From NCBI GenBank assembly GCA_947174495.1, contig CAMWJC010000007.1, positions 1-64,000 on the forward strand: a stretch of DNA of 64,000 nt. The letters run 5' to 3'. The stretch's first letter is position 1; each line of letters starts with the position of its first letter. Both the position numbers and the translations under genes were made by a program. The stretch comes from an uncultured Lachnospiraceae bacterium. GTDB taxonomy: Bacteria > Bacillota > Clostridia > Lachnospirales > Lachnospiraceae. Positions 18,614 to 47,584 of the stretch are shown piece by piece. The notes under the pieces were generated by a model. It was not told the origin of the DNA. It ran no database searches and saw only the letters and a list, made by a program, of their open reading frames with translations.

Positions 18614-19001
18614 AATTTACGTTTGACTGGGTATGCGTATATAAGTCGTACGCTCAGATTAAAATAAATCCTACGTCAGCACGCTCGATAAAGCGTTCGC
18701 GAATTGCTTCCTTTAGGATTTATTTTAATCTGAGCTGGATTACTGAATAACGCAAAGCCCAAATGGTAACTCCACTAATGTCGAATGGTTCACTCTTTAG
18801 CAGTCAGCCAGACAGTAAATTAGGCAACTGTAGTGAAGTCATTTCATTAGCTGTTTTTCCGTTAGCCAAAAACTAACTCGGATAAGAAACAAATTCTTAA
18901 GGAAGCAATTCGCGAACGCTTTATCGAGCGTGCTGATGTAGAATTTTGTTTCTTATCCGAGTGGTCGTTCAGATACATCAGTTAAACCAGCTAAACGTTA
19001 A
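18614..19001. mobile_element. Paired-hairpin repeat element, copy A (full length)
   Basis: This roughly 388-bp non-coding element fills the space between tRNA-Thr and mscS. Its ends are imperfect inverted repeats related to AACGTTTAGCTGG. Hairpin A1 (18652-18735) has a perfect 22-bp stem. Hairpin A2 (18876-18962) is in the opposite orientation, with a 22-bp stem and one bulged T. Both enclose a nearly identical loop of about 40 bases with CGCTCGATAAAGCG and TTCGCGAA. A middle segment of about 140 bases carries a weaker inverted repeat (AACTCCACTA). The right end reaches the TAA of mscS. There is no ORF of note. It is homologous to copies at 35.3 and 46.6 kb. Confidence 0.9.
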
Positions 19002-19843
19002 TTCTGCTCCACATGCACATCAATCTGCGGATAGGGAATATTAATTCCTGCCTCATCCAGCGCATATTTTGCTTCTTCCGTCAAACGCCACTTCGCCGTC
19101 CAGTAATCGCTCTGCAAAGTCCAACAACGAAGATTTAATATCACACTGCTATCTCCAAGTGTATCCACAAACACCATCATGTCCTCATCCTTAAGTACTG
19201 CCGAATCGGCCTTTAATAAATTGATAAGAACCTCTTTAGCTCTTTTGATATCATCCTTGTAGGAAATACCTACAGAAATATCTAACCTCCTGGTGGGACA
19301 CTTCGTAAAATTTGTAATGGTTCCATTCGCAAGAGTTCCATTGGGAAGCACGATACTCTTGTGATCCGGCGTAATCAGATGGGTGTAAAACACATCTATA
19401 GTCTCCACTGTTCCCTCATTTCCGGCGCCATCTCTGATATAATCTCCCGGTGCAAAAGGCTTTAGAATCAAAAGAAGTACTCCTCCCGCAAAATTGCTGA
19501 GACTCCCCTGTACTGCCAAACCAATCGCCACACTGGCTGATCCCAATAATGCAATGATACTTGCTGCATCCACCCCTAAACCAGAAGCGATGGTAAGAAC
19601 CAGAATAAAATACATGCCAAACTTGACAAAAGAATCAATAAAACTCACAGCACTGTCATCTACACGGCTCCTGTCAAGCGCCTTTTTCAGCACATGACGA
19701 ATTAGTCGTATAAGCTGTACTCCGACCAGAAACGCCAATGCCGCAAGCACCACCCGAAGGCCTAAATGAAACGCCTTTTCGGGCAGCTCCTGAAGAAATT
19801 TTTCAATTACTCCTGCTTCCTTACCAATCTGCTGGATATCCAT
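18998..19843 (-). CDS. mscS: Small-conductance mechanosensitive channel, MscS family
   Basis: A 281-residue membrane protein. An N-terminal helix and two more helices (about 20-105) precede the Gly/Ala-rich pore-lining TM3 (ALLGSASVAIGLAVQGSLSNFAGG, quoted as segments ALLGSASVAIG and LAVQGSLSNFAGG). The soluble MscS beta domain follows with PFAPGDYIRDG. The family releases osmolytes under hypo-osmotic shock as a heptamer. CAGGAGTAATC precedes the ATG. It starts 2 bases after the glgB stop, so the two are co-transcribed. Its stop codon lies in the terminal repeat of element copy A. Confidence 0.93.
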   Translation of the reverse strand: MDIQQIGKEAGVIEKFLQELPEKAFHLGLRVVLAALAFLVGVQLIRLIRHVLKKALDRSRVDDSAVSFIDSFVKFGMYFILVLTIASGLGVDAASIIALLGSASVAIGLAVQGSLSNFAGGVLLLILKPFAPGDYIRDGAGNEGTVETIDVFYTHLITPDHKSIVLPNGTLANGTITNFTKCPTRRLDISVGISYKDDIKRAKEVLINLLKADSAVLKDEDMMVFVDTLGDSSVILNLRCWTLQSDYWTAKWRLTEEAKYALDEAGINIPYPQIDVHVEQN

Positions 19844-34228: not shown

Positions 34229-35332
34229 ATGGCAGGCTCAACATTCGGAACAATATTTAAGATCACTACTTGGGGGGAATCCCACGGCAAAGCACTTGGT
34301 GTTGTCATTGACGGCTGCCCCGCAGGTCTTCCCCTAAATGAAGAAGATATTCAGATATACCTTGACCGTCGAAAACCCGGGCAAAGCTCCATAACCACGC
34401 CCAGAAAAGAAGCCGATCAGGTAGAAATCCTATCCGGCGTTTTTGAAAGCCGGACCACCGGAACTCCCATCTCTCTGATTATCCGGAATACTTCACAGAA
34501 GTCTTCCGATTACAGTGAGATTGCTTCTTATTACCGCCCTGGACATGCGGACTATACCTTTGATGCCAAATACGGATTTCGGGATTATACCGGCGGAGGA
34601 CGTTCTTCCGGGCGTGAAACCGCATGCCGTGTGGCAGCAGGCGCCGTTGCCATAAAGCTTTTAAAGGAATTAGGAATTACTGTGACTGCTTATACCAGAT
34701 CCATCGGCCCTGTCAGCGCTAATCTGGAACGTTTTGACCGGAGCGCTATTTACTCCACTGCCACCTGCATGCCTGATTCTGATGCTGATAGCCGGGCAAC
34801 CGCCTATCTGAAAGAATGTATGATGAAAAAAGACTCCAGCGGCGGAGTCATTGAATGTATTACCACAGGGCTTCCTGCAGGAATCGGCGACCCTGTTTTT
34901 GAAAAGCTGGATGCCAATCTTGCCAAAGCTATTATGTCCATCGGTGCTGTAAAGGCTGTGGAGATCGGTGACGGCATTGATGTTTCGACTTCAACAGGCT
35001 CAAATAATAATGATGCCTTCCAAAATAAAGACGGTATTATTTCCAAAAAAACAAACCATGCAGGCGGTATACTAGGCGGCATCAGTGACGGTTCAAAATT
35101 AATCCTCCGTGCCCATGTTAAACCCACCCCTTCTATCTTCTCCCCTCAGGAGACCATAAACAAAAATGGAGAAAATATAACCGTAGAAATCAAAGGACGG
35201 CACGATCCGGTGATCGTTCCCAGAGCTGTGGTAGTTGTGGAAGCCATGACCGCACTTACATTATTGGATGCATGCATGCTGAATATGACTGCAAGAGTTG
35301 ATTATATGAAGGAATTTTACCATAACGTATAG
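34229..35332 (+). CDS. aroC: Chorismate synthase
   Basis: Last shikimate-pathway step, EPSP to chorismate, needing reduced FMN. It has 367 residues. GESHGKALGVVIDGCPAG near the N-terminus and GGGRSSGRETACRVAAGA match the family signatures. AGAGAGG before ATG 34229 gives the usual MAGSTFG start; the longer ORF in the track adds an upstream leader. It is monocistronic, divergent from the VanY-type gene. Its final codons and TAG lie in the left terminal repeat of element copy B. Confidence 0.96.
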   Translation: MAGSTFGTIFKITTWGESHGKALGVVIDGCPAGLPLNEEDIQIYLDRRKPGQSSITTPRKEADQVEILSGVFESRTTGTPISLIIRNTSQKSSDYSEIASYYRPGHADYTFDAKYGFRDYTGGGRSSGRETACRVAAGAVAIKLLKELGITVTAYTRSIGPVSANLERFDRSAIYSTATCMPDSDADSRATAYLKECMMKKDSSGGVIECITTGLPAGIGDPVFEKLDANLAKAIMSIGAVKAVEIGDGIDVSTSTGSNNNDAFQNKDGIISKKTNHAGGILGGISDGSKLILRAHVKPTPSIFSPQETINKNGENITVEIKGRHDPVIVPRAVVVVEAMTALTLLDACMLNMTARVDYMKEFYHNV

Positions 35333-35718
35333 CTTTGATATGCATATGATTGACGTCCGCTCAGATGAAAAGAAATTCTACGCGCCATATTGGCGCTAAG
35401 CACTGCTCGATAAAGCGTTCGCGAATGGACTCCTTTAGAATTTCTTTTCATCTGAGCTGGGTTACTAAATAACGCATAGTCCAACTGGTAACTCCACTAA
35501 GACGAAATGGTCCACTCTTTAGCGAACAGCCAGGCAGTGAATTAGACGACTATAGTGGAGTTATTAGCTGGTTTACCGTCAGCCAAAAAAGTAACTCGGA
35601 TAAGAAACAAATTCTAAAGGAACCAATTCGCGAACGCTTTATCGAGCGTGGTGACGTAGAATTTTGTTTCTTATCCGAGTGGTCGTTTAGGTCCTATGGG
35701 TAAACCAGCTAAACGTTT
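35323..35718. mobile_element. Paired-hairpin repeat element, copy B (full length)
   Basis: A roughly 396-bp non-coding element between convergent aroC and the FtsX-type permease. Hairpin B1 (35359-35457) has a perfect 22-bp stem and a loop enlarged by a GCGCCA/TGGCGC insertion. Hairpin B2 (35594-35680), inverted, has a 22-bp stem with one bulge. The middle holds a perfect AACTCCACTA/TAGTGGAGTT inverted repeat. Compared with copy A, three positions of the first stem differ and all three are compensated on the other arm. The right terminal repeat supplies the TAA of the permease gene. No ORF of note. Confidence 0.9.
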
Positions 35719-38071
35719 ACTCCTCCACAAGCATTTTCACAGGTTCAATCTTTTTAATCTTCCGGCAGCAGACCAGCGTCACGAAAGCTGATGTAATGCA
35801 AATCATTAACACTGTTATCAGCATCCAGAAAAGATTCGTCTGGAAACTGCACTTTTTTATTCCACAGAAAGATAAGCAGCTCACCGCAATCTTCTCTCCC
35901 GCAGCTCTGCATAAGATACAGCCAAGCAGCGATCCTGCCGCCATAACCGGAAGGTTGGAATACAAGGTCTGCCGGCAAAGCTGCCATGTGGTAAATCCCA
36001 GCGCCTTGGAGATTCCGTAATTTTTCCGTTCTCTGACAATCTTAGTCTTCACCAGAAGGAACACGATCAAGATTACAGTCAAAACTGTCACCGTCACCAA
36101 AATAACACATATCAGCCCAATCACATAGGCTACCGACGCCAGCGAATTCATTGACGCTTTTTCCGTATCAGTGACTTCACGATCCGGGTAAGCCTTTGAG
36201 AGAATCTCCAAAAGTTCCTGCCCGCTATAACCTTCTTTGCCATAGACATAAATCATTTTCGTCACGCAGCTTCCATTCAGGCGCTGTGCCCCTTCATAAC
36301 ACATCAAAGCCTTACGGCCCATATTATTGATTTTCTGATCGATTCCCGTAAGAATATAATCCTTTTTTCCTTCCGTACCCTCTACATAAATGGTATCTCC
36401 CACCTGTGCCCCTATACTGTCACAGATGGTCGCGGTAAGTACAATTTCGTTGTCATACTCCGGCAGTCTTCCTTCCAACAGCATTTCATTGTCATTCTTT
36501 TCCGGTTCCTTCCAGAAATCACAAGTCACATCCGTCGATTGGTCTTCCCGGTAAACCACAATATTGGCTGAGCTGCCATAAGTCACTTTCTCTACTTGTG
36601 GGTAATCCTCAATTTCTTTTCCTAATTCATCCAGCCCCTCTCCCACATATCCGGCCTGCCCAAACTCAATTCCTGTAAGTTTCAGGAGCATCTCTGTTTC
36701 CTGCACAAAGTTCTGGTACATATAAAATCCTACACAGTTTGCAAAACCCAAAAGCGTCACCACGAAAACAATTCCCAGATTTCTCAGTTTTGTGCTGAAG
36801 ATGCTTTTCATTCCAAGCACAAAAAGAAGCGGCTGACGGCCTTTATTTAATGGGAAATAATTCCTCCTGAAATTATGTGCCATGATTCCTCCCCGAAGAG
36901 CATCCAGGATGGGTGTCCTGCCATATCTTCTGGCACTTACCCCTGTAATTGCCAATGTAAGAAAAATACAGCAGACAACGGCGATCAGCGTGCTGAAAAA
37001 GTCAAAGCTAACAGTCCACGAAAGCCCCATAACCGATGCAAGGAGCTGCCCCATGGCAGGTCCTGTAAATGCCCCCAGAAGAATTCCGCATAAGCTTCCT
37101 GCTACAGAAACGATCCCCATTTCCATCACAAAGCTTTGGGTAATCTGATGTGCAGTATATCCGGAGGCTTGCAGCATCCCGATATTTTTTAGATTCATAT
37201 CACAAAAATTCCCAATGGAAAACCGTATTACCACCATTGCAATCACAAGTAAAAGCACTGCAAAGACCATTGCAATTCCCATGCCGATCATGCTCATCAT
37301 CGTATCACCGCCGCGCATAGCTTCCCATGCAAAGGAAAAATTAAATGCATCATCAACATGGGGCAGTGCGTTATTTAAGTCAGAAGAGATTTCCCTGGTA
37401 AAAGCCAAGCTGCTCTCTCCCTCCTTCAGCCTTATTTTGTACTCCATATAAGGAACAAGATCCGGTTCCTTTTCAGTCAGGTACTCTAACATTTCATCAG
37501 ATAAATAACACTTGTAAACGGCGAGATTTAAAGGATTGGCAAAAAGCGGATCCTCCACAAAGCCCGCAATCTCAAACGCATATTCTTTCCCGCTGCCAAA
37601 AGAAAGCCTGATCATATCCTGTTCTTTGCAGCCGAAAGATGATTTAAAATAGTAAGGCAGCAGTATCTCATTTTTAGAAAGTTCTTTTTCGAACTTCGGA
37701 TAAATACTGCATACACTGCGCTTCTCACTTACAGACGCCAAAAGAAAATAAAAACTGTTTTCCGCCTTTTCCTCCAAGCCATATTTGCTGTTTGTCGTAA
37801 AGTAAGCGGGTGTTTTTTCAAATCTTTCCACCTGCTCATAATTTTCAAAAAAATCTTCTATCCCCACCACATTGCTTTCCAAATTAAGCATATACCAGTC
37901 TGCGGTCTGACATATCTCATACTGTTGATCCACTACCTTTCCCATATTCATAAAAGCATGAAGACTTACATATAAAAGAAGCGCTGCGATGGCAATCAGG
38001 GTTGATAGTACCATGGCATCACCCTTCTTTTTCTTCAAATTGTTCTTTGCAATAAAAAAGCTCCGATACAT
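35717..38071 (-). CDS. FtsX/MacB-type ABC transporter permease
   Basis: A 784-residue permease with an N-terminal helix, a large extracellular domain (about 45-255), a block of three FtsX helices, then a second extracellular domain (about 455-620) and three more helices. It ends in the cytoplasmic KKIEPVKMLVEE. This is the duplicated FtsX plan of peptide/lipoprotein exporters. It starts 1 base after the partner ATPase. The linked two-component system suggests an envelope-stress or antimicrobial-peptide response, which is inference. Confidence 0.88.
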   Translation of the reverse strand: MYRSFFIAKNNLKKKKGDAMVLSTLIAIAALLLYVSLHAFMNMGKVVDQQYEICQTADWYMLNLESNVVGIEDFFENYEQVERFEKTPAYFTTNSKYGLEEKAENSFYFLLASVSEKRSVCSIYPKFEKELSKNEILLPYYFKSSFGCKEQDMIRLSFGSGKEYAFEIAGFVEDPLFANPLNLAVYKCYLSDEMLEYLTEKEPDLVPYMEYKIRLKEGESSLAFTREISSDLNNALPHVDDAFNFSFAWEAMRGGDTMMSMIGMGIAMVFAVLLLVIAMVVIRFSIGNFCDMNLKNIGMLQASGYTAHQITQSFVMEMGIVSVAGSLCGILLGAFTGPAMGQLLASVMGLSWTVSFDFFSTLIAVVCCIFLTLAITGVSARRYGRTPILDALRGGIMAHNFRRNYFPLNKGRQPLLFVLGMKSIFSTKLRNLGIVFVVTLLGFANCVGFYMYQNFVQETEMLLKLTGIEFGQAGYVGEGLDELGKEIEDYPQVEKVTYGSSANIVVYREDQSTDVTCDFWKEPEKNDNEMLLEGRLPEYDNEIVLTATICDSIGAQVGDTIYVEGTEGKKDYILTGIDQKINNMGRKALMCYEGAQRLNGSCVTKMIYVYGKEGYSGQELLEILSKAYPDREVTDTEKASMNSLASVAYVIGLICVILVTVTVLTVILIVFLLVKTKIVRERKNYGISKALGFTTWQLCRQTLYSNLPVMAAGSLLGCILCRAAGEKIAVSCLSFCGIKKCSFQTNLFWMLITVLMICITSAFVTLVCCRKIKKIEPVKMLVEE

Positions 38072-42824: not shown

Positions 42825-43898
42825 ATGAAAAAAGTTTTGATCGACCTGAAAAATATCAGCAAATCCTTCGATGGTCAGATGGTTTTGGATGACTTGAATC
42901 TTTATATCCGCGAGAATGAATTTTTAACACTTTTGGGTCCCAGCGGCTGTGGAAAAACCACCACTCTGCGTATTCTGGGCGGTTTTGAGTCCCCTGATAA
43001 AGGAAGTGTGATTTTTGACGGAAAGGATATCACAAAACTGCCTCCCAACAAGCGTCAGTTAAATACTGTTTTCCAGCGCTACGCTCTTTTTACCCATATG
43101 ACCATTGCCGAAAACATTGCATTTGGTCTGAAAATCAAAAAAAAGAGCAAGGCTTACATTGATGACAAAATTAAATATGCCCTGAAACTGGTGAATCTGG
43201 ATGGCTTTGAAAACCGTATGCCGGATTCCTTAAGCGGCGGTCAGCAGCAGCGTATCGCTATTGCCAGGGCCATCGTCAACGAACCGGAAGTGCTGCTTCT
43301 CGACGAGCCCCTGGGCGCTCTTGATTTAAAGCTCCGACAGGATATGCAGTATGAGTTGATCCGCCTAAAAAATGAACTGGGAATTACCTTTATTTACGTT
43401 ACCCACGATCAGGAAGAAGCTCTTACCATGTCCGACACCATCGTGGTTATGAATCAGGGCTATATTCAACAGATCGGTTCTCCCGAAAAAATCTACAACG
43501 AACCGGAAAATGCTTTTGTTGCCGATTTTATCGGGGACAGTAATATCATAAATGCCACTATGATCGAAGATAAACTGGTAGAGATTTTCGGCACCCGTTT
43601 TCCCTGCGTGGATACCGGATTCGGCAAAAACAAACCTGTAGATGTGGTAATCCGCCCGGAAGATGTGATCCTGTCCTCTCCCGCTGCCGGCCGGCTGAAA
43701 GGCGTGGTAACGCACTTAATCTTTAAGGGTGTTCACTATGAGATGGAAGTTACCGCATGCGGCTATGAATGGCTGGTACACTCTACCGGAATGTATCCGG
43801 TAGGCACTGAAGTCGGCATTGATGTAGATCCTTTTAATATTCAGATTATGAATAAACCCGCTTCAGAGGATGAGGAGGCCGTCGGAACAAATGAATAA
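42825..43898 (+). CDS. potA: Spermidine/putrescine ABC transporter ATPase
   Basis: 357 residues: ATPase with Walker [12 protein letters not shown], signature [14 protein letters not shown] and Walker [13 protein letters not shown], then a C-terminal TOBE domain (about 270-345). It energises polyamine import through PotB/PotC. AAGGAG lies before the ATG. It overlaps potB by 8 bases. Confidence 0.95.
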
Positions 43899-44721
43899 AA
43901 CAGAATCATTGAAAAAAAAGCTGTTAGGGACACCCTATTTTATCTGGTCTGTCATTTTCATCCTTGTCCCCCTCGGCATGGTATTTTATTATGGACTGAC
44001 CGACCGGTCGGGTGTTTTTACTCTTGCAAATGTACTGGCAATTTCCACACCGGAGCATTCGAAAGCTTTATGGATTGCACTGTTTTTATCGGTAATTGCC
44101 ACTGTGATATGCCTATTGCTCGCATATCCTCTTGCCATGATCTTATCCCGCCAGAAAAATGGACGCCAGAGCTTTATCGTGCTGATCTTCATTTTACCCA
44201 TGTGGATGAATTTTCTGCTGCGTACGCTGGCATGGCAGACACTCCTGGAAAAGACCGGAGTGATCAACAGTATATTGGAGTTTCTCCATTTACCGGCGCT
44301 GAACATAATCAACACGCCTTACGCTATTATCCTGGGCATGGTTTATAATTTTTTACCTTTTATGGTTTTACCGATCTACAATGCCCTGTCCAAAATAGAC
44401 ATCAACGTGATCAATGCGGCCAGAGATTTGGGGGCCAACGGGTTGCAGGTATTTTTAAAGATCACTCTGCCTTTAAGTATCCCCGGCATCATCAGCGGCA
44501 TTACAATGGTATTTATTCCTGCACTGACTACCTTTGTCATCAGTAAGCTACTTGGAGGAAGCAAGATTTTACTGATCGGAAACGTGATTGAAGAAGAATT
44601 TACACAGGCAAGTAACTGGCATTTGGGAAGCGGACTTTCCATCGTACTGATGCTGTTCATCATCATAAATATGCTCTTAACTGCTGCTTTTGACAAAGAT
44701 GGGGAGGGTTCCTTCTTATGA
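43891..44721 (+). CDS. potB: Spermidine/putrescine ABC transporter permease PotB
   Basis: A 276-residue permease with six predicted helices and the family's EAA-like loop ([19 protein letters not shown]) before the last helices. ATG 43891 is preceded by GAGGAGG at a 12-base distance; the track's start at 43870 would consume that site. It overlaps potC by 4 bases (ATGA). Confidence 0.93.
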
Positions 44722-45503
44722 AAAGAAATATATTGCAAAAAATATACATTGCCCTTATTTTTATCTTTCTGTATGCCCCCATCGTCACCCTGATCGTACT
44801 TTCCTTCAATGGAAGCCGGACACGGGCAAAGTGGGGAGGCTTTACCTTAAAGTGGTATAGCGCACTATTTCAGAACCGAGACATTCTACAGGCTTTGTTT
44901 AATACTTTGTTGATTGCGCTTATTGCCTCAATTGTATCCACTATCATCGGCACCATTGCCTGCATCGCCATTATGAACCTGAAAAAGAAATCCCGTGCTA
45001 TTGTTATGGGAATTACAAACATTCCCATGATCAATGCGGAAATCGTCACTGGAATTTCTTTAATGCTGCTGTTTATCAGCCTGGGACTTCGCTTTGGGCT
45101 TGGCACCATATTATTGTCTCATATTACCTTCTGTATTCCTTATGTGATATTGAGTGTCATGCCAAGAATGCAGCAGATAAATCCTTATACCTATGAGGCG
45201 GCTCTGGATCTGGGAGCCGGACCTGTATACGGATTTTTCAAAGTAGTTTTTCCGGATATCCTTCCTGGTGTGCTCTCTGGGTTTCTGATGGCATTTACCA
45301 TGTCGCTGGATGATTTTATCATCACCCACTTTACCAAAGGTGCCGGGGTAGATACTCTTTCAACCAAAATTTATACAGAAGTAAAAAAGGGAATCAAACC
45401 TGAAATGTACGCTTTATCCACGATTATTTTTCTGACCGTTCTTACGTTACTTTTTTTGGTAAATAGGGTTCCGTCAGAAAATCAGGAAAAGAAAGGAGCC
45501 TAA
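44718..45503 (+). CDS. potC: Spermidine/putrescine ABC transporter permease PotC
   Basis: A 261-residue permease with six helices, EAALDLGAGPVYGFFKVVFP as its ATPase-contact loop and SLDDFIITHF near the end, both typical of PotC. GGGAGGG lies before the ATG within potB. Its stop overlaps the potD start region. Confidence 0.94.
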   Translation: MKRNILQKIYIALIFIFLYAPIVTLIVLSFNGSRTRAKWGGFTLKWYSALFQNRDILQALFNTLLIALIASIVSTIIGTIACIAIMNLKKKSRAIVMGITNIPMINAEIVTGISLMLLFISLGLRFGLGTILLSHITFCIPYVILSVMPRMQQINPYTYEAALDLGAGPVYGFFKVVFPDILPGVLSGFLMAFTMSLDDFIITHFTKGAGVDTLSTKIYTEVKKGIKPEMYALSTIIFLTVLTLLFLVNRVPSENQEKKGA

Positions 45504-45505
45504 TG

Positions 45506-46561
45506 ATGAAAAAATTATTATGTCTTGCGCTTTCGCTTCTGTTTGTGCTGTCACTTCTTACCGGCTGCGGCAACAGTGCTGGTAAAAATGGTGAAGTCAT
45601 TGTTTTCAATTGGGGCGAATATATTGATCCGGAAACACTTTCCCTGTTTGAGAAAGAAACCGGTATTAAGGTAGTATACGAAGAATTTGATACCAATGAA
45701 ACCATGTACCCGAAGGTAGAAACCGGCGCTTCTGCATACGATGTTATCTGTCCTTCCGATTATATGATCCAGAAAATGATCGACAATAACCTACTGGCTG
45801 AGATCAATTTTGACAACATCCCCAATATTAAAAATATCGGGGAACAATACTTTGAGCAGTCCAAAGAATTTGATCCCGAAAATAAATATTCAGTTCCCTA
45901 CTGCTTTGGTACTGTAGGTATCCTCTATAACAAGACCATGGTATCCGATCCTGTGGATAGCTGGTCAATCCTCTGGGATGAAAAATACGCAGACAATATT
46001 CTGATGCAGGACTCTGTAAGAGACGCTTTCATGGTTGCCTTAAAATTAAATGGCTTCTCCATGAATACTCTGGATGAATCACAGCTGCAGGCTGCCAAAA
46101 ATTCCCTTATTGAACAAAAACCTCTGGTGCAGGCTTATGTGATCGATCAGGTTCGTGACAAAATGATTGGTGATGAAGCCGCATTAGGTGTTATTTATTC
46201 CGGTGAGGCTATTTATACCCAGCGTGAAAATGAAAATCTGGAATATGTAGTTCCCAAAGAAGGTACTAACGTGTGGATTGATTCCTGGGTCATTCCGAAA
46301 AATGCCCCCAACAAAGAAAATGCAGAAAAATTCATTGATTTTATGTGCCGCGATGATATCGCGCTGATGAATTTTGAATACATTACCTACTCTACCCCCA
46401 ATGTGGCTGCGCAGGCTTTAATTGAAGATGAGGATATCAAAAATTCAAAAATTGCTTTTCCTGATCTCTCCCAATATGAAAATCTGGAGACCTTCCAGTA
46501 TTTGGGGAGCGAAGGGGATGATCTGTATAACAGCCTTTGGAAAGAGGTAAAATCAGAATAA
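45506..46561 (+). CDS. potD: Spermidine/putrescine-binding lipoprotein
   Basis: A 351-residue extracellular solute-binding protein tethered by a lipid at the Cys of LTGCG. The mature protein starts with VFNWGEYIDPETL, the PotD signature, and contains the Asp/Trp/Tyr-rich polyamine pocket. AAAGGAG precedes two successive ATGs (45503, 45506); the second has the better 7-base spacing. It is last in the operon; its TAA lies directly against element copy C and no classical terminator is seen. Confidence 0.95.
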   Translation: MKKLLCLALSLLFVLSLLTGCGNSAGKNGEVIVFNWGEYIDPETLSLFEKETGIKVVYEEFDTNETMYPKVETGASAYDVICPSDYMIQKMIDNNLLAEINFDNIPNIKNIGEQYFEQSKEFDPENKYSVPYCFGTVGILYNKTMVSDPVDSWSILWDEKYADNILMQDSVRDAFMVALKLNGFSMNTLDESQLQAAKNSLIEQKPLVQAYVIDQVRDKMIGDEAALGVIYSGEAIYTQRENENLEYVVPKEGTNVWIDSWVIPKNAPNKENAEKFIDFMCRDDIALMNFEYITYSTPNVAAQALIEDEDIKNSKIAFPDLSQYENLETFQYLGSEGDDLYNSLWKEVKSE

Positions 46562-46775
46562 ATTTACGTTTAGCTTGGTTCCAGAGATCAATATAAAACC
46601 CGGATAGAATCAAATTCTACGTCGCCACGCTCGATAAAGCGTTCGCGAATTGGCTCCTTAAGAATTTGATTCCTATCCGGGTTAAATTATTGGCTAATAG
46701 AAAACCAGCTAAGGACTCCACTATAGCCGCTCAATCCACTGTCTGGCCATCCGCTCTTTCTCCCTGCCCGATGCA
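46561..46775. mobile_element. Paired-hairpin repeat element, copy C (half copy)
   Basis: This 215-bp region lies between convergent potD and the lysozyme gene. The left end carries the terminal repeat (ACGTTTAGCTTGG). One hairpin (46597-46683) has a 22-bp stem with one bulged C and the conserved core. The following stretch, with AACCAGCTAA and ACTCCACTATAG, aligns with the reverse complement of the middle segment of copy B. The second hairpin and right end are missing, so it is a truncated or solo form. Confidence 0.85.
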
Positions 46776-46783
46776 CTACCAAG

Positions 46784-47584
46784 CTATCCCTGAACTGTCA
46801 GGCGCTTCAGTTCTTCCCTCGAACCATAAAACACATTCCTGTCAATATATTTCTCACTTCCCTGATATCCCTCCAAAACATCCCTGTCCGTATACTGCCA
46901 AAAGGTCCATTCGATAGAAACCGGCGGATAATAAACATTCCTGATCCACAATGGATATTCCTCAAATTCCCCTTCAATAAAATCACGATATGCTTTATAT
47001 GTAGTATAAATAATTGGTTTCACATGATAATGCTCTTCCAGCAGATCAAGCATCACTGTAAGTTGTGCCTGAATCTCCTTTTTATCCGGCGGATTCTTAT
47101 CTTTATCTCCATAGTATTCCACATCAATGACCGGCGCCAGCTTTCCCTGTAAGTTTCCCACTGTATCAATAAAATGCTCCGCCTGCATCTTTCCCTCACT
47201 GTCAAAGCTGAAAAAATGATACACTCCTGTCATAAGAGAGGTCTGTGCGGCTTCCTCCCAGTTTTTTTCAAAGTATTGATCTACATAGCTGCTTCCTTCT
47301 GTTGCTTTGATAAATGCAAAATCAATTCCCTGCTCCTCAATTTTCTTCCAGTCGATATCTCCCTGATAATGAGATACATCAATCCCATCAAGCTCATACT
47401 TTATAGCAAAAGAAGGTGTTATTCTAATATATTTCTTCAAAATCAATATACCTGTTAATACAAATGCCCAAAACAGAATTGCAAAAATGATAATAATTGT
47501 TTTCTTTTTCAACAGCTTGCTCTTCTCCCTGATAGTGTATGATTCAAAATTCTCATTTTCATCCGGATTTTCTATATGGGTCAT
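46784..47584 (-). CDS. GH25 lysozyme-like muramidase, membrane-anchored
   Basis: A 266-residue protein with a cytoplasmic N-terminus, one helix (about 29-49) and a GH25 domain outside. Catalytic acidic residues are in DGIDVSHYQGDIDW and PVIDVEYYGD, and WTFWQYTD is the conserved C-terminal motif. It should cleave the MurNAc-GlcNAc bond of peptidoglycan. Lack of cell-wall binding repeats suggests a housekeeping wall-remodelling enzyme, not a phage lysin. Confidence 0.92.
   Translation of the reverse strand: MTHIENPDENENFESYTIREKSKLLKKKTIIIIFAILFWAFVLTGILILKKYIRITPSFAIKYELDGIDVSHYQGDIDWKKIEEQGIDFAFIKATEGSSYVDQYFEKNWEEAAQTSLMTGVYHFFSFDSEGKMQAEHFIDTVGNLQGKLAPVIDVEYYGDKDKNPPDKKEIQAQLTVMLDLLEEHYHVKPIIYTTYKAYRDFIEGEFEEYPLWIRNVYYPPVSIEWTFWQYTDRDVLEGYQGSEKYIDRNVFYGSREELKRLTVQG

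Follow-up and report, generated by a model that had tools for sequence, protein, structure and literature searches.

What is the hairpin that lies between potD and a lysozyme-like gene in this uncultured Lachnospiraceae genome, and why does a nearly invariant core stand in it beside a short helix whose sequence changes from copy to copy? The preliminary description of the 64,000-nucleotide stretch analyzed here (the window) offered two answers: a protein- or ligand-binding RNA, or a single-stranded DNA motif read by a transposase such as a REP-type TnpA. From the comparison of its copies, we consider it probable that the hairpin at this locus, hairpin C, represents one of many copies of a palindromic DNA element that is mobile, non-coding, and MITE/REP-like and whose arms are matched by copying at the DNA level.

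Hairpin C and its copies in the window, the genome, and the family

The core ACGCT-CGATAA-AGCGT is present at 46627-46642 and is followed by TCGCGAATT, as first described. The features of the locus are the following.

46561-46766, no strand assigned: element C, with a terminal repeat at 46561-46574, hairpin C, and a partial middle hairpin at 46713-46723; the right limit is approximate
46594-46686, plus strand: hairpin C, whose outer arms AACCCGGATAGAATCAAATTCT / AGAATTTGATTCCTATCCGGGTT flank the conserved core
46624-46654, plus strand: inner module of hairpin C, read from the sequence and by covariation analysis
46624-46637: 5' part of the inner module, GCC (46624-46626), ACGCT (46627-46631), and CGATAA (46632-46637)
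46638-46654: 3' part of the inner module, AGCGT (46638-46642), TCGCGAATT (46643-46651), and GGC (46652-46654)

The GCC/GGC triplets of the inner module form a covarying 3-bp helix. Hairpin C scored 104 bits with the covariance model R1, and its fold z-score was -7.2 as DNA and -7.0 as RNA. A pattern search of the window found five copies of the core, four of them exact, where 0.23 were expected. The remaining hairpins belong to two further elements.

18614-19003, no strand assigned: element A, terminal repeats at 18614-18627 (plus) and 18990-19003 (minus)
18648-18739, plus strand: hairpin A1 (Y type), inner helix AGC/GCT, R1 score 112 bits
18872-18966, minus strand: hairpin A2 (X type), inner helix AGC/GCT, R1 score 96.3 bits
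35320-35721, no strand assigned: element B, terminal repeats at 35320-35333 (plus, degenerate) and 35708-35721 (minus)
35355-35461, plus strand: hairpin B1, loop variant c with an extra small hairpin GCGCCATATTGGCGC, R1 score 76.4 bits
35590-35684, minus strand: hairpin B2 (X type), inner helix ACC/GGT, R1 score 98.1 bits

In element A, the oppositely oriented hairpins A1 and A2 are accompanied by a middle hairpin with arms at 18767-18777 and 18831-18841; element B holds B1 and B2 and a middle hairpin with arms at 35489-35499 and 35553-35563. The inner triplets of A1, A2, B2, and C read as the preliminary description gave them. Its suggestion that B1 is decayed holds for the 3-bp helix, which is broken (AGC/GAC, unpaired), but not for the hairpin as a whole, which still scores well above 70 bits and carries a variant loop, GCGCCATATTGGCGCTTAGCACT, common to about 15 copies examined across the genome under study (G000) and its sister species (G033).

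The terminal repeat of element C abuts the potD stop codon (46559-46561). Element C is without a second hairpin, its Y half having been lost; in G033, both halves are found at the same potD-lysozyme intergenic place, on two contigs, with the Y half on the lysozyme side. Across 42825-47584 of the window, a potABCD-like operon converges on a glycosyl hydrolase 25-type lysozyme-like gene, and element C fills the gap (genes around the elements are simple open-frame calls).

Over the whole genome, we counted 67 matches to the core pattern at up to three mismatches (none with the reversed control) and 87 hairpins with a covariance model, copy numbers that are minima because draft assemblies break inside elements. 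The hairpins are mostly arranged as inverted pairs within repeats of ~370-445 bp bearing terminal inverted repeats (TAAATTAACGTTTAGC). In most complete copies, the terminal inverted repeat (T)AAATTAACGTTTAGC is followed by a Y hairpin, then by a middle hairpin and an oppositely oriented X hairpin, and the terminal repeat in inverse orientation closes the element. The apical part has three interchangeable forms, namely a (the form studied here), b (long and branched), and c (with an extra small hairpin). As to the make-up of an intrinsic terminator, a GC-rich stem with a U-tract behind it, the CCGGG-type X hairpin has TTTTCATATTT after it in one orientation, and the other hairpin types are without it.

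Covariation was strong at every scale of comparison. The triplet helix was Watson-Crick in 53 of the 57 copies within the genome (shuffled mean 13.6, maximum 27) and in 93 of 103 when the sister species was included (shuffled mean 24.5, maximum 42); it occurs as five pair combinations, and the core and flanking unpaired bases are fixed. When 59 hairpins from three species were aligned over 26 pairs, 97.0% of the cells were paired, compared with 81.8% after shuffling and at most 46.3% after sliding; double changes were found in 18 of the 26 pairs, and none of 500 shuffles reached any of the measures.

Among the 397 Lachnospiraceae genomes sampled, dense copies of the exact pattern were confined to G000 and G033, and a diverged form of the hairpin was found in G029. 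Within the genus, a model of the a form detected relatives, mostly of the long b form, in 19 of 38 genomes. We describe the wider distribution by R2, a covariance model of the b form (142 positions, 46 pairs, 37 with double changes), which matched 132 of the 397 genomes and 117 of 334 genera, both minima with at most eight candidates scored per genome, and had no match in ~100 kb of control loci. Although R2 was built from the long loop form only, without any a form, it matched all five window hairpins, including hairpin C at an E-value of 5e-11 (E-values of the covariance models are rough). Read directly, the R2 matches have CGCTYNCGCT, CG-A-C-G, and CTAAG...TCG...CTC...CTAAG...CG in common, and their outer arms differ. 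By this comparison, the core in the window is a shortened version of a ~142-nt branched hairpin. In 43 copies from about 30 genera, compensatory changes were present in 45 of the 46 pairs and 97.6% of the cells were paired. These results fully support the original observation of conserved unpaired bases beside covarying helices.

Several known origins could be set aside. No Rfam 15 family matches the hairpin at gathering or permissive thresholds (in the window only a tRNA was found), and a known RNA family was rejected on this basis. Phage and plasmid collections gave no match, and the two pattern matches on viral contigs fall inside a phage protein-coding gene and are chance. In literature searches, strings of the core sequence matched unrelated oligonucleotides only, and the element was not found.

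Element ends and orthologous sites

The element usually begins at or just past a stop codon. TA stands at the boundary in 65 of 113 ends. At 87 ends, an open frame leads toward the element; its stop codon begins precisely with the boundary TA in 19 cases, with the TAA of TTAACG in another 11, and with the TAG of the terminal repeat in 4.

Many element sites are common to G000 and G033, at ~83-98% flank identity. The apical form is swapped (b versus a) at the shared sites L040/L125, L037/L119, L052/L107, and L025/L131; at L051/L113, it is the orientation of the element with respect to the flanks that is reversed. Other sites differ in occupancy: no element occupies the L014 site in G029 and G034, the L053 site in G029, or the L057 site in G016, and at the L007 site all that remains in G033 is a remnant similar to the terminal repeat. 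In G033, the L016 site is filled by another repeat, ~640 bp long, that has the same ends; G029 has a version of its own next to apparently the same gene end. It is from such comparative evidence only that we infer movement of the element; the multi-copy state and the presence or absence of copies at orthologous sites bear out the part of the transposase proposal that concerned a mobile element.

When occupied and empty sites were compared for a target duplication, the TA pattern fitted, in a set of clean empty sites that are few and diverged, and this suggests that TA may be duplicated at insertion. At L053, TAG is found in G029 where G000 reads TAA, as predicted if insertion at TA rebuilds TAA. 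We hypothesize that insertion goes to TA-containing sites and that, because the element starts with AATTAACG, TAA would be rebuilt by an insertion at a stop-codon TA, so that little harm is done. An inserted element could then act as the 3' end of a transcript. A putative trans-acting factor would recognize the folded strand by the invariant core bases and move the element; such a factor would be a new target for study. Against mobility, it may be said that no mobilizing enzyme was found and that a core conserved across the family could also reflect a cellular function.

Three further observations concern the surroundings of the sites. A second repeat family, ~640 bp when complete, has the same terminal repeat, AATTAACGTTTAGC, around wholly different nested hairpins (GACTGAGTCATTTCAGC..., GCTGCCCAGAGCC...); it occurs at L075, L077, L080, L082, L085, L088, L214:473-1105, and L247 and fills the same site as the present element in the sister species. 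At L074 (G000:C14:51430-53747), a gene-end sequence of ~30 nt (AAAAGCAT.AAAAAGAATTACTGAAATAA) is duplicated 2.3 kb apart, with a lipoprotein-like protein gene in between, and both copies precede the terminal repeat of an element. The left flank of L057 (G000:C34) contains direct repeats, TTGCATCATAGTTGCATCAAAATTGCATC, that recur at dozens of places across the genus and are possibly an operator or another repeat family.

Origin of the matched arms

Selection on an RNA helix ordinarily tolerates G-U pairs, and a G-U on one strand is an A-C on the other. Counts of G-T versus A-C cells were 31 versus 23, 15 versus 18, and 40 versus 18 in three alignments (A1, A2, and A3, respectively). In the third alignment, a single column supplies 13 of the 40 G-T cells; it has 13 T-G cells, at most one other non-standard cell, and no reciprocal C-A.

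The arms of individual copies provide a second line of evidence. In each of eight copies in G327, the two arms, 49-78 bp long, match at 91-100% (55/55, 51/51, and 69/69 in three of them). Compared between copies, the match falls to a median of 31% of the shorter arm, and the core is 93% identical; G-T and A-C cells in these arms are equal, at 6 each. The arms in G117 also differ between copies and are less perfect than those of G327; those in G111 are less perfect as well and are alike between copies. At sites shared by G000 and G033, with flank identity of 88-98%, the arms show 50 paired Watson-Crick changes versus 23 single changes. Two independent changes should be rare at such flank identity; the paired changes are explained by one-step correction of an arm (template switching) or by replacement with another copy, and the second route counts against arms copied in place.

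We propose that the arms are kept matched mainly by copying one arm from the other at the DNA level, rather than mainly by slow compensatory selection on an RNA; candidate routes would be template switching at replication, hairpin-primed synthesis, and conversion between copies. Template switching is an established mutational process that makes the arms of inverted repeats identical (PMC8604942; PMC7202029). Like the process proposed here, such quasipalindrome correction makes arms identical and produces paired changes in one step; it is known at ordinary inverted repeats and is not known as the upkeep of a dispersed element family, the part it would play here (PMC7202029, PMC8604942).

The best-surviving alternative, which we nevertheless judge unlikely, is a conserved structured RNA element of 3' untranslated regions (protein-binding, stabilizing, or terminating) that also spreads and whose pairing is kept by selection on the transcript. 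The strong covariation with conserved unpaired bases speaks for it, as does the small conserved loop, whose complementary strand is of the GNRA type in the forms seen (GAAA, GAGA, GGGA, GGAA, GCAA, and GCGA); this loop and the T-G column of the third alignment hint at an RNA or strand-specific role. Placement agrees too: family-wide, 24 of the 25 copies with both neighbors typed lie downstream of at least one gene, and the place straight after the potD stop codon that the element occupies in G000 and its sister is taken by a terminator-like stem-loop in most of the other species in the genus. On the other side, G-T wobbles are rare and hardly exceed A-C mismatches, near-perfect arms of 49-78 bp that differ between copies exceed what RNA selection would demand, the hairpins occur in both orientations relative to genes, and the sequences of the element copies have no consistent U-tract 3' of the hairpins. 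Of the proposed ligand- or protein-binding RNA, then, the conserved unpaired bases with covariation stand, but the arms behave as if copied in DNA, with G-T hardly in excess of A-C and, in G327, with near-perfect arms of private sequence.

Next in probability, and speculative, is a new kind of mobile element that spreads as a folded single-stranded DNA hairpin, with its branched conserved core bound or nicked by a dedicated factor and its arms copied by fold-back (rolling-hairpin-like) synthesis in each round; if true, every copy would carry matched arms of private sequence. The hairpin is also a warning for RNA discovery: covariation of this strength is usually read as proof of RNA function, and here much of it looks DNA-copied, which makes the question directly testable.

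Candidate enzymes and related repeat classes

Transposases were sought by family, for Y1_Tnp and DDE_3. Being non-coding and multi-copy with terminal inverted repeats, the element has the general make-up of a MITE, and we regard as doubtful, more so than the readings above, that a TA-targeting DDE transposase of the IS630/Tc1-mariner type, since lost or unsampled, moved it as a classical MITE, with the hairpin as a passenger or regulatory part. TA at the boundary of the terminal inverted repeats and the existence of several internal families with the same ends would fit. However, DDE_3, the IS630 transposase, is absent from G000, G033, and G029, the three rich genomes, and the ends of the element are not found at any IS630 locus of the genus, which speaks against the IS630 transposase; moreover, it is the hairpin core that is conserved across species and the ends that differ, the opposite of what a normal MITE shows. 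Lone matches to the terminal repeat in the genome itself were other repeats or contig ends, and no transposon was seen. At the L012 site, the larger gaps of 1.3 kb (G033) and 2.6 kb (G029) hold unrelated genes and not an autonomous copy. The 30 proteins adjacent to hairpins in other genera likewise shared no gene and included no transposase, being ordinary metabolic, structural, or unassigned proteins of unrelated families, so that a partner encoded next door was rejected.

Weakest of all, and very improbable, is the originally proposed REP element moved by a REP-associated tyrosine transposase (RAYT/TnpA-REP): the inverted pairs of a conserved palindrome downstream of genes, the ends that supply stop codons as in GTAG REPs (PMC3733652), and the CGTC beside the core in the genus all recall it, but the element is branched and far longer than a REP, its CGTC tag is not conserved beyond the genus, and Y1_Tnp is absent from G000 (78% complete, so that absence is not proof), a fragment in the equally copy-rich G033, and present in many genomes without the element. 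Y1_Tnp occurs in 21 of the 38 genomes of the genus irrespective of the element, and the listed Y1 genes do not adjoin the listed hairpins; on this distribution, a REP-type TnpA as the reader of the motif is not supported.

Compared with described classes, the element is best placed, as a new variant, among dispersed palindromic repeats, and we assign it neither to REPs nor to a known MITE family. REPs are 20-40 bp long, and their CGTC families have stems of 8-9 bp and loops of 4-5 nt and are without a dedicated transposase (Di Nocera 2013, PMC3733652). Like the GTAG and CGTC superfamilies of REP/BIME (PMC3733652), the present hairpins are dispersed palindromes, mostly in head-to-head pairs, 3' of genes, with ends that often give a stop codon; their placement, mostly between convergent or co-directional genes and near 3' ends, is that of REPs, and as for CGTC REPs no transposase was found among the families sought (PMC3733652). 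Unlike REPs of 20-40 bp with an unpaired GTAG or CGTC tag, they have a branched core of ~90-142 nt and outer arms of up to 78 bp, their CGTC is variable across genera, and they lack the RAYT (Y1) association of GTAG REPs. With MITEs and modular repeats (ERIC, BOX, RUP, and SPRITE; PMC10969869), the element shares non-coding sequence, terminal inverted repeats, intergenic position, strong folding, and modularity. It differs from them (PMC10969869) in that conservation across genera falls on the core and not on the ends, internal loop types are exchanged at a fixed site, and neither a parental transposase nor, for IS630, an autonomous transposon sharing its ends was found. The closest published kind is MRSC-65-2 (PMC11109978), a multi-copy structured motif with strong covariation that possibly acts as DNA; it is a single long stem with UYCCGG repeats, whereas the element here is branched and has a different conserved core.

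A structured multi-copy element without an Rfam 15 counterpart is thus present in a third of the sampled genomes of the Lachnospiraceae, a major gut-bacterial family, and in some genomes it shapes the 3' ends of dozens of genes.

Two loci elsewhere in the family deserve mention. In G014, a T-box leader scoring 85.2 bits (gathering threshold 93) lies at L272:1758-2007, shortly downstream of a hairpin copy and unrelated to it. In G363 (L324), a near-repeat of arm and inner segment (ACAGAGCGAGAGCG...) comes after the arm of a hairpin, and a second copy ~130 nt away suggests local duplication.
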